This document shows, in pieces, positions 14,562 to 16,349 of a stretch of DNA of 30,259 nt. Source of the stretch: a virus; IMG/VR virus record IMGVR_UViG_3300036835_000111, positions 1 through 30,259 of that record; one strand, given 5' to 3'. Both the position numbers and the translations under genes were made by a program. Within the stretch, counting starts at the first letter, position 1; each line of letters starts with the position of its first letter. The notes below the pieces were generated by a model. The model had not been told where the DNA came from and ran no database searches. It saw only the letters and a list, made by a program, of their open reading frames with translations.

Positions 14562-15344
14562 ATGAAGGGTTTCATTGCGGCGTTCGTCGTCGCATCAGCG
14601 CTCGTCGTGGCCCCGACTGCCGGGGCTGGCGGGGTCGAGAAGCAGTGGGTCTGTCACGACAAGGGCACGCCAGATGATCAGTGGGCCTTGATCGACGTGC
14701 CGACCGACGCCCAACACTTCCGGCCGAACAAGGATCACTTCCCGAGCGACGACGGTGACGGCCACAAGCACTGTGGCAAGCCTGAGGAGCCGCCGACACC
14801 GCCGTTCAACGGCAAGCTGGACTTCCAGTTGGTCTTGGCGAACTGCCCCGATGGGCAGATCGGCGTGCCGGGATTCACGGTGACGGAGACTTCGTTCAAG
14901 GACGGTGAGTCGATGGACGACGACAAGGTCATCTTCGAGTATCCGACGACATGCATCCCGGTCGTGCCCGGTCCTCCTGGCCCCGCCGGTCCGACAGGCC
15001 CGGCTGGCGCCAACGCACCGGGTACTGGCAGTGGTCCCGGTGGTGTCGGATCTGCCGGCGTGCCAGGTAAGCAGGGCCAGAGCGTCAAGCGCTGCAAGTC
15101 CAGGCGCTCAGTGACGATCACTCTGCCGAAGTCATTCAAGGGCACGAAGTCCGTCAGGGTGACTGTCGGATCCAAGGTGAAGATCGTCGCCGTCAAGGGC
15201 GGCAAGGTGAAGGTCAGCCTGAAGGGCATCCGCGAGGGGAGCGCCGCCATCCGTATCAAGAGGGGCAAGCTTCACTTCGTCAGGCAGTACGCTGTCTGCA
15301 ACGAAGGCAACCTGACCGGGATCAACGTCCCGGTCGCCGAGTAA
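14562..15344 (+). CDS. Exported Cys-rich protein with collagen-like linker
   Basis: 260 residues from ATG 14562 with SD GGGAGGTTCA. An in-frame ATG at 14469 lies inside the previous gene and lacks a ribosome site. Residues 1-22 form a Sec signal peptide ending TAGAGG. Residues 28-72 (WVCHDKG...DQWALIDVPTDAQHF...HKHC) resemble a small secreted Cys/His domain found in bacterial surface proteins. Residues 136-170 are Gly-Pro-rich and collagen-like. The C-terminal domain (about 175-247) is a beta domain bracketed by Cys178 and Cys246, starting KRCKSRRSVTITLP, similar in style to domains common in secreted proteins of Solirubrobacterales. Six cysteines outside the signal suggest three disulphides. 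The role is unknown; cell-surface modification or virion decoration are both possible. Confidence 0.75.
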   Translation: MKGFIAAFVVASALVVAPTAGAGGVEKQWVCHDKGTPDDQWALIDVPTDAQHFRPNKDHFPSDDGDGHKHCGKPEEPPTPPFNGKLDFQLVLANCPDGQIGVPGFTVTETSFKDGESMDDDKVIFEYPTTCIPVVPGPPGPAGPTGPAGANAPGTGSGPGGVGSAGVPGKQGQSVKRCKSRRSVTITLPKSFKGTKSVRVTVGSKVKIVAVKGGKVKVSLKGIREGSAAIRIKRGKLHFVRQYAVCNEGNLTGINVPVAE

Positions 15345-15377
15345 CAACAACGGGCGGAAGCCCAGAAAGGAGCGACA

Positions 15378-15884
15378 ATGCGTCGCTTGCTGTGCCTGGC
15401 CGGACTCTCGGCCATGCTGCTGATCCCGGCCGGGGCGAGTGCCCAGGCCCCCACCCTCGACCAGTCGGGGGCGCAGACGGCCACCGGCAACTACGTCCAG
15501 CGCAACGCCAGGAGCATCGTGGACGCGCGAGGTCGCGCCACCCTCGATGCCCCGGCGACGGTGCCCGCATGCGTCCAGCAGACCTCGGCACGCTTCCCGA
15601 GGTTCTACTGCCTGTTCTCGGCGGACATCAGTGACCGTGTGTTCCTCGGGTTCACGCGCGTCCACATCCGCAGCGTCCGTGGCGGCCCCACCCCTCCGCA
15701 CCACACGAAGATCGTGCGGCGGTTCCTGGTCCGGCACTTCCACTGCGTCGGCGTCGTTCAGGTGCGTGCCGGGTTCTTCCGGCCCAACGTGAGCCTGGTC
15801 GCCAAGGACTGCGTCCAGGGGCGCAGCACCTTCGACAACGGGCCGTCGGATGACGCGGCTCCGGCCCCGGCTCCGACCACCTAG
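15378..15884 (+). CDS. Exported unknown protein
   Basis: 168 residues. Residues 1-24 are a clear signal peptide (MRRLLCLAGLSAMLLIPAGASAQA). The mature part contains about four cysteines (in VPACVQQ, FYCLF, FHCVG, KDCVQ), fitting two disulphides, and a His-rich segment (PPHHTKIVRRFLVRHFHC). It ends in an Ala/Pro stretch. No family recognised. SD AAAGGAG lies 7 bases before the ATG. It is the middle of three consecutive genes for exported proteins, each with its own ribosome site, so a shared surface role is inferred. Confidence 0.65.
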   Translation: MRRLLCLAGLSAMLLIPAGASAQAPTLDQSGAQTATGNYVQRNARSIVDARGRATLDAPATVPACVQQTSARFPRFYCLFSADISDRVFLGFTRVHIRSVRGGPTPPHHTKIVRRFLVRHFHCVGVVQVRAGFFRPNVSLVAKDCVQGRSTFDNGPSDDAAPAPAPTT

Positions 15885-15901
15885 CGACACCAAGGGGGAT
15901 G

Positions 15902-15947
15902 AGGGCCTCGGCGTGGTTTCTAAAGTGGGGGCCGACGCCGGGGCCTT
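15902..15947 (+). terminator. Long GC-rich hairpin before the collagen-like gene
   Basis: 13-bp stem (left arm 15902-15914, right arm 15935-15947, two G-T wobbles) with a 20-base loop. The right arm is followed by TCAACCTTAGG, a weak T tract. It could end transcription of the two upstream exported-protein genes or control the next gene, whose SD (AGGAGGTTCA) starts 8 bases later. Confidence 0.5.
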
Positions 15948-15965
15948 CAACCTTAGGAGGTTCAA

Positions 15966-16349
15966 GTGAGACACATCATAGCGCTAGCCGTCATCCTGAC
16001 GTTGGCGTTCACCGCATTTGCCGTAGCCGACAGGGTCGAGCCTGCAACTCAGCCCGCCGCGAAGACAAGCGCCAAGACCAAGACCATCCGTGGCCCGCGC
16101 GGCAAGACTGGCAAGACGGGCAAGCGCGGGCCGCAGGGGCTGCCCGGCGACCCCGGCCCGCCAGGGGATCCGGGACCGCCCGGCAACGATGGGGCTCCGG
16201 GCAACGATGGAGCACCGGGCGCTGACGGCCAGGATGGAGCGCCGGGAGCGCCAGGCCCCGCGTGCCCGGATGGCTCAACCGCGACCCCTGAGACGGTCAT
16301 GCTTGACGGTGGCGGTACGGCCAAGGCGATCCTCTGCGTGACTCCCTGA
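15966..16349 (+). CDS. Exported short collagen-like protein
   Basis: 127 residues from GTG 15966 with SD AGGAGGTTCA. Residues 1-21 are a signal peptide or membrane anchor ([20 protein letters not shown]). A basic Lys/Thr stretch follows, then an uninterrupted Gly-X-Y tract from about residue 42 to 102 ([20 protein letters not shown] and on, with repeated GNDGAPG). It ends in a 25-residue domain with two cysteines. Collagen tracts in phages usually form trimeric fibres, but here the export signal points to the host envelope or surface. The stop TGA is the first part of a TG-N3-CAGCCCTG motif. Confidence 0.75.

Follow-up and report, generated by a model that had tools for sequence, protein, structure and literature searches.

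Four related metagenomic myophages share one block of three adjacent genes, which we designate P1, P2, and P3, and this block is very probably a portable cassette of genes for proteins with signal peptides. The interpretation we favor, to which we assign a probability of about 0.4, is that the cassette is moron-like and that its exported products coat or alter the surface of the infected actinobacterial cell against further adsorption or injection.

The window, by which we mean the whole stretch of DNA that was analyzed, is positions 1–30,259 (30,259 nucleotides; 62% GC) of IMG/VR record IMGVR_UViG_3300036835_000111. All of its genes are on the plus strand. It contains a contractile-tail module (sheath, tube, tape measure, a LysM protein, collar-domain fibers, baseplate J, and a gpI-like gene), in which the sheath and tube were named on the basis of size, position, and the match of the tube to Arthrobacter myophages. 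A 1041-aa fiber (7369–10494) carries a collagen-linker plus tail-collar domain in two tandem copies. Located 3' of the tail module are replication genes for a SNF2-type helicase, an AAA/DnaB-like protein, a PD-(D/E)XK exonuclease, and a RecA-like protein. The P1–P3 genes lie after the gpI-like gene and before the replication region and thus, for the window, behind the baseplate genes as originally predicted:

12466–13749, plus strand, baseplate J (E = 3e-16)
13749–14375, plus strand, gpI-like gene (weak match, E = 0.07)
14372–14551, plus strand, 59-aa gene separating gpI from P1 (resembles Imm32 weakly, E = 3e-4, below cutoff)
14562–15344, plus strand, P1, 260 aa, ATG start
15378–15884, plus strand, P2, 168 aa, ATG start, signal peptide MRRLLCLAGLSAMLLIPAGASA
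15966–16349, plus strand, P3, 127 aa, GTG start
21418–21831, plus strand, signal peptide-bearing, exported transglycosylase of Rpf-like type (PF06737, E = 5e-22), retained by the relatives G1–G3 and G8

We scanned 2.9 million viral contigs with P1, P2, their alignments, and the C-terminal domain of P1, and every scan returned the same three IMG/VR records: G1 (56,265 b), G2 (56,318 b, with a 110-bp terminal repeat), and G3 (39,880 b). G1 and G2 are near-complete 56-kb genomes. All three of the records that hold any of the genes hold P1, P2, and P3 in the same order, which upholds the expectation that relatives would keep the genes together rather than scattered. In fourteen further relatives, recognized by their tail tubes (G4–G17), P1 and P2 are absent, although most of these records are fragments that do not span the sites described below, and among them only the more distant G8, G10, and G11 extend past the tail genes.

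The cassette occupies two different sites. In G1–G3 it is found not behind the baseplate genes but behind the helicase, among replication genes, where P1–P3 lie exactly between a gene of about 63 aa (gene a) and a gene of 59 aa (gene b). The stop codon of gene a overlaps the ATG of P1, and the start of gene b overlaps the stop of P3 by one base in G1 and lies eight bases after it in G2 and G3. The window, whose own copy of the cassette is instead at 14562–16349, has homologues of both flanking genes:

25145–25339, plus strand, small ORF a behind the helicase, whose homologue precedes P1 in G1–G3
25336–25521, plus strand, small ORF b, whose homologue follows P3 in G1–G3

These two ORFs overlap by 4 nt (25336–25339) with nothing between them and so represent an empty site; their homology to the G1–G3 genes is reflected in alignment scores of 73–79 and 134–138, respectively, as compared with shuffle maxima of ≤48 and ≤53. 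The contrast between filled and empty site, which is accurate to the codon, marks P1–P2–P3 without their neighbors as a unit. This comparison applies to the helicase site only, as gene order at the baseplate-side site of the window differs in the relatives, and no counterpart of the 59-aa gene at 14372–14551 was found in G1–G3. It is unlikely that the window record is a chimeric assembly, a possibility we considered, because the genes on both flanks match one lineage, that of G4, whose identity to the window is 73–92% for tail genes and 75–82% for exonuclease genes.

As expected of a moron, the cassette is absent from the same site in a related phage that keeps the flanking genes. The suggestion that these might be moron genes from a host is therefore sustained in part: the different site, the empty site, and the discordant divergence described below all favor it, whereas its lysogenic version is weakened and a host origin is unsupported. 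Neither a tyrosine nor a serine integrase (PF00589, PF00239) turned up in any of the four phages, of which G1 and G2 are near-complete. For this reason we downgrade lysogenic conversion, which like an ordinary tail fiber is a less likely explanation, and consider a lytic life likelier than a temperate one.

Between the window and G1–G3, amino acid identity is 46–74% for structural and replication genes, 67–72% for P1, 78–81% for P3, and 88–93% for P2. At fourfold-degenerate sites the same comparison gives 40–45% identity for the backbone as compared with 68–69% for P2 (p = 3e-7 to 4e-5). The G2–G3 pair shows the opposite pattern, with a backbone that is 75% identical at such sites and with P1 and P3 at only 53% and 51% (p = 7e-6 and 2e-5). 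Strong selection could explain the high identity of P2 but not the low identity of P1 and P3 between G2 and G3, and hence the simplest account, which these sequence comparisons imply, is that the cassette has been exchanged between phages. The helicase adjacent to the cassette, however, shows discordance of its own between G2 and G3, so that part of the low identity of P1 and P3 may be due to regional recombination. A block of low dS spans the C-terminal domain of P1 through P2 (dN and dS for P2 being 0.05–0.12 and 0.38–0.53). Finally, the GC3 of P2 (0.86–0.90) is higher than in the majority of backbone genes (mean for the window 0.80, sd 0.07) and in each phage is the highest among nine genes compared, a weak hint that P2 might have come from outside.

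The original prediction held that three consecutive genes each specify a signal peptide and have their own Shine–Dalgarno sequence, and this is confirmed by the open reading frames, by a rule-based scan of N-termini, and by conservation: P1, P2, and P3 are each preceded by their own Shine–Dalgarno sequence in the window as well as in each of the relatives G1–G3. Signal peptides were called by applying the scan to the 40 genes of the window, in conjunction with conservation in relatives. The rule flagged six genes, of which two clearly do not specify signal peptides and four look real, namely P1, P2, P3, and the transglycosylase gene at 21418; by our own arithmetic, the chance that three of four such genes would adjoin among 40 is about 1.5%. 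Stronger support than the rule itself comes from the relatives, in which a hydrophobic core and an AXA cleavage motif are kept for each of the three proteins, even though the identity of the P1 signal peptide across relatives is only 32–73%. No lipobox among P1–P3 is kept in all four phages; we considered P3 as a lipoprotein on account of the sequence LLLGC in G1–G3 but rejected this assignment, as P3 of the window lacks that cysteine. The predicted cysteine content was likewise confirmed, with six in P1 and four in mature P2 (a fifth lies inside the signal peptide). P3 has two, and so the mature counts (6, 4, and 2) are all even, and all of these cysteines are invariant in 4/4 sequences. From these features we infer that P1–P3 are exported.

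The domains of P1 are as follows:

residues 1–22, signal peptide
residues 23–80, variable N-terminal domain (C31, C71)
residues 81–134, second beta domain (C95, C131)
residues 135–174, interrupted collagen tract
residues 175–260, conserved Ig-like C-terminal domain (C178, C246)

The cysteine pairs of P1 presumably form within domains. Across the window and G1–G3 the C-terminal domain of P1 and P2 are conserved and the N-terminal domain of P1 is variable, which fits the pattern expected of an anchor and a specificity part. P3 consists of a signal peptide, 19 GXX triplets, and a 30-aa C-terminal cap bounded by its two cysteines. Two of the three proteins had been predicted to be collagen-like, and this is strongly so for P3, which matches the Pfam Collagen family (PF01391) with an E value of 1e-10 (41.6 bits, cutoff 27.2), but weakly so for P1, whose interrupted tract in the window falls below the cutoff (E = 0.19, 11.9 bits) and which does better in the relatives (10–11 GXX triplets, E values down to 9.7e-6). 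P2 has no collagen repeat and represents an orphan family. Beyond the collagen repeat, P1 and P2 matched no entry in Pfam, PHROGs, NCBIfam, PADLOC, or PDB, and P1, P2, P3, and the other collagen protein were unmatched in INPHARED, in which a low-complexity filter may mask matches to repeats alone. Structure prediction, which had been proposed as a check, was informative for one part: AF2 models were weak (pLDDT 52 for P1 and 42 for P2, the latter being discarded), and a Foldseek search with the P1 model gave no match below an E value of 0.001 and only generic Ig-like domains, confined to the C-terminal part, which on the strength of this model is likely to be an Ig-like domain. The folds were otherwise uninformative.

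Membrane-anchored GXX proteins with a C-P-x-G...C cap like that of P3 are also encoded in G1 (51799–52134; L017:11799-12134) and, on the reverse complement, in G2 (17932–18489). Given these other capped proteins, the capped collagen-stalk design, as read from the sequences, is one that recurs in this phage group.

Several further sequence elements are found in and around the cassette:

15351–15364, plus strand, small hairpin upstream of the P2 Shine–Dalgarno sequence (GGGC/GCCC; GGCGCC/GGCGCC in relatives)
15900–15950, plus strand, long RNA hairpin in the P2–P3 intergenic stretch, from folding and comparison of the four phages
16364–16394, plus strand, perfect 9-bp inverted repeat 3' of P3, a terminator-like stem with no T run
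16428–16460, plus strand, promoter-like element CTTTAGGTT-N3-TTTATGA-N-TAGACT, repeated in the phage family

The long hairpin, which has 22 bp, is found in the relatives at L002 ~9335–9387, L003 9317–9369, and L004 9320–9372. Its inner 33 nt, CGGCGTGGTTTCTAAAGTGGGGGCCGACGCCGG, are identical in all four phages, its outer stem shows compensatory changes at three pairs, and its folding energy is 5.7 sd below that of shuffled sequences. No Rfam family matches it, and G1–G3 are the only other IMG/VR records in which its 21-nt core was found. The hairpin may set the ratio of P2 to P3, protect the mRNA, or mark the recombination site of the block. Also identical in all four phages, synonymous sites included, are the first 36 nt of P2 (15378–15413 in the window), which suggests a constraint on DNA or mRNA in addition to that on protein. 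The promoter-like element, which includes a pair of CTTTA repeats some 11 bp apart, is present in ten copies in the four phages, ahead of gene blocks (16428, 17598, and 26314 in the window; 20104, 26322, and 41634 in G1; 7940, 42081, and 48523 on the reverse complement of G2; and 33639 in G3), and this repeated CTTTAGGTT element is likely to be a phage-specific promoter or operator. The cassette is located just upstream of a copy in the window, G1, and G2 (with one small gene between in G1 and G2). Because the element opens the next gene block, the cassette closes a block in the window and, in G1 and G2, comes close to doing so. No sigma-70-like site was found in the interval 14000–17000 of the window, in which no private promoter for the cassette was recognized.

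What is the host of these phages? The nearest isolate proteins are from phages of Arthrobacter, Brevibacterium, Gordonia, Microbacterium, and Streptomyces (26–33% identity), and PF06737 matched only one of 14 control genomes, that of Corynebacterium glutamicum. The distribution of this family and the nearest isolate phage proteins both point to an actinobacterium, which is probably the host, and the transglycosylase is probably the endolysin or a part of one. The C-terminal domain of P1 may resemble secreted proteins of Thermoleophilia. The idea that this domain is host-derived was not borne out: two scans of genome contigs, with the P1 alignment and with the exported transglycosylase, and a scan of plasmids found no host homologue, and no host genome matched.

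How might the cassette benefit the phage? We envision that the infected actinobacterial cell would make P1, P2, and P3 as Sec substrates, that the proteins would be exported and then disulfide-bonded outside the membrane, and that P1 and P3 would probably trimerize through their collagen stalks. Together they would coat or alter the cell surface in such a way that particles of the same kind or of competitors adsorb or inject less, and this shielding would act both on infected cells and on debris. That the benefit is surface shielding or superinfection exclusion is our guess from precedent: Llp of T5 is an exported protein of a lytic phage that blocks its receptor (PMC9586334), and Ltp is a lipoprotein that is exported, acts in superinfection exclusion, and has been argued to be spread as a moron among phages of Gram-positive bacteria (PMC3952083). 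Such a use would be in keeping with a conserved base that carries a variable outer domain. Against it, three proteins exceed what known single-protein exclusion systems need, and no homology of P1 or P2 to known exclusion families (Ltp, Llp, Cor, and others) was seen in Pfam, PHROGs, NCBIfam, PADLOC, or PDB. Also, the tail operon is late in most phages, and exclusion proteins are usually early; that the window has its cassette after the tail genes points to late expression and hence argues against exclusion. A more elaborate proposal, which we regard as rather doubtful, is that collagen-stalked, disulfide-capped trimers of P1 and P3, with the strongly conserved P2 serving as their scaffold or anchor, decorate the actinobacterial wall and exclude phages, that the hairpin sets the ratios of the proteins, and that the cassette is traded between phages.

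Two other possibilities would likewise have the proteins act outside the membrane. One, which we judge to be unlikely, is that P1–P3 help in lysis by acting in the wall with the transglycosylase to loosen, organize, or time rupture of the envelope, for example in the manner of a sensor or an antiholin. Indeed, the same phages export a PF06737 enzyme, in G1–G3 its gene shares one stretch with the cassette, uninterrupted by a promoter element, and the distant relative G010 (L064), as read by eye, exports a 3D-domain-like protein (26363–26719) and a GH25-lysozyme-like lipoprotein (27636–28664) from directly 3' of its tail genes; moreover, the RI antiholin of T4 has a cleavable signal peptide (PMC8385771). 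Yet the cassette moves independently of the transglycosylase gene, which stays with its neighbors; genes for lysis are seldom optional; and P1–P3 showed no enzymatic, wall-hydrolase, or holin-like family in Pfam, PHROGs, or NCBIfam. Still less probable is that the proteins form a secreted adhesive or matrix, by the logic of Scl, that makes infected cells or debris stick to neighbors or surfaces and so aids spread. Collagen stalks with cysteine-capped ends would suit this role, as would the other membrane-anchored GXX protein of similar cap in G1 and G2, and among NCBIfam families P3 most resembles the collagen-like adhesins of streptococci (E = 7e-9, 35 bits, cutoff 325), although this similarity is limited to the low-complexity repeat. 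The C-terminus of P3, however, lacks LPXTG, there is no other wall anchor, and slow building of a matrix would give a lytic phage little gain.

A third possibility dispenses with export, the proteins being virion decorations or accessory tail fibers whose N-terminal hydrophobic stretch serves in assembly. The cassette follows baseplate genes in the window, P3 matches the PHROGs "collagen like minor tail" and tail-fiber families (E = 4e-9), and collagen proteins of E. coli prophages are likely to be side-tail proteins (PMC3368898). But the PHROGs matches are confined to the GXX repeat with no tail-attachment domains, the copies in G1–G3 are among replication genes rather than tail genes, all three adjoining genes specify signal peptides of the cleavable type, and invariant, even-numbered cysteines in the mature proteins would be unusual for fibers assembled in the cytoplasm; we therefore consider this reading very unlikely. 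Least probable of all is that the cassette is cargo of no present benefit to the phage, consisting of host-derived secreted proteins passed around by recombination. Such an origin might account for the GC3 of P2 and for a divergence that does not track that of the backbone, but dN for P2 is well below dS, all cysteines and signal peptides are kept, the module is whole in four lineages, and the searches for a host homologue described above found none.

Exported phage proteins that act outside the infected cell are known mostly as single lipoproteins of model phages. Here we have a three-gene unit of exported type, with two orphan families and two sites, for which the filled and empty states are both visible. 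If the surface is in fact altered, as our favored interpretation holds, the cassette would be a testable multi-protein exclusion system in an under-studied group of phages, and the conserved hairpin between P2 and P3 may show how such units set the ratios of their proteins.

How does the cassette compare with known systems? Like T5 Llp and TP-J34 Ltp (PMC9586334, PMC3952083), P1–P3 are small, phage-encoded, apparent Sec substrates that would act outside the cytoplasm. Llp and Ltp, however, are single lipoproteins of known fold, whereas the cassette specifies three proteins with no kept lipobox and no homology to them, two of which are orphans and two of which have collagen tracts. The T4 RI antiholin (PMC8385771) is also a phage protein with a cleavable signal peptide that acts outside the membrane, but no homology to it was seen and no holin partner was identified. 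With the collagen-like tail fibers (PF01391; EPclA and EPclB of E. coli O157:H7 prophages, PMC3368898) the cassette shares GXX repeats that are likely to trimerize, but it differs in having signal peptides, in lacking the N- and C-terminal domains of tail fibers, and in lying outside the tail genes in G1–G3. P3 lacks the LPXTG anchor of the streptococcal adhesins Scl1 and Scl2 and resembles them through the repeat alone; what P1 and P3 would have in common with them is an exported collagen stalk. Finally, the cassette departs from morons in being a three-gene unit with no private promoter recognized and no integrase seen, which makes its lysogenic expression doubtful, but it shares with them precise insertion between genes that are adjacent in a relative, discordant divergence, and a location last or nearly last in a gene block.
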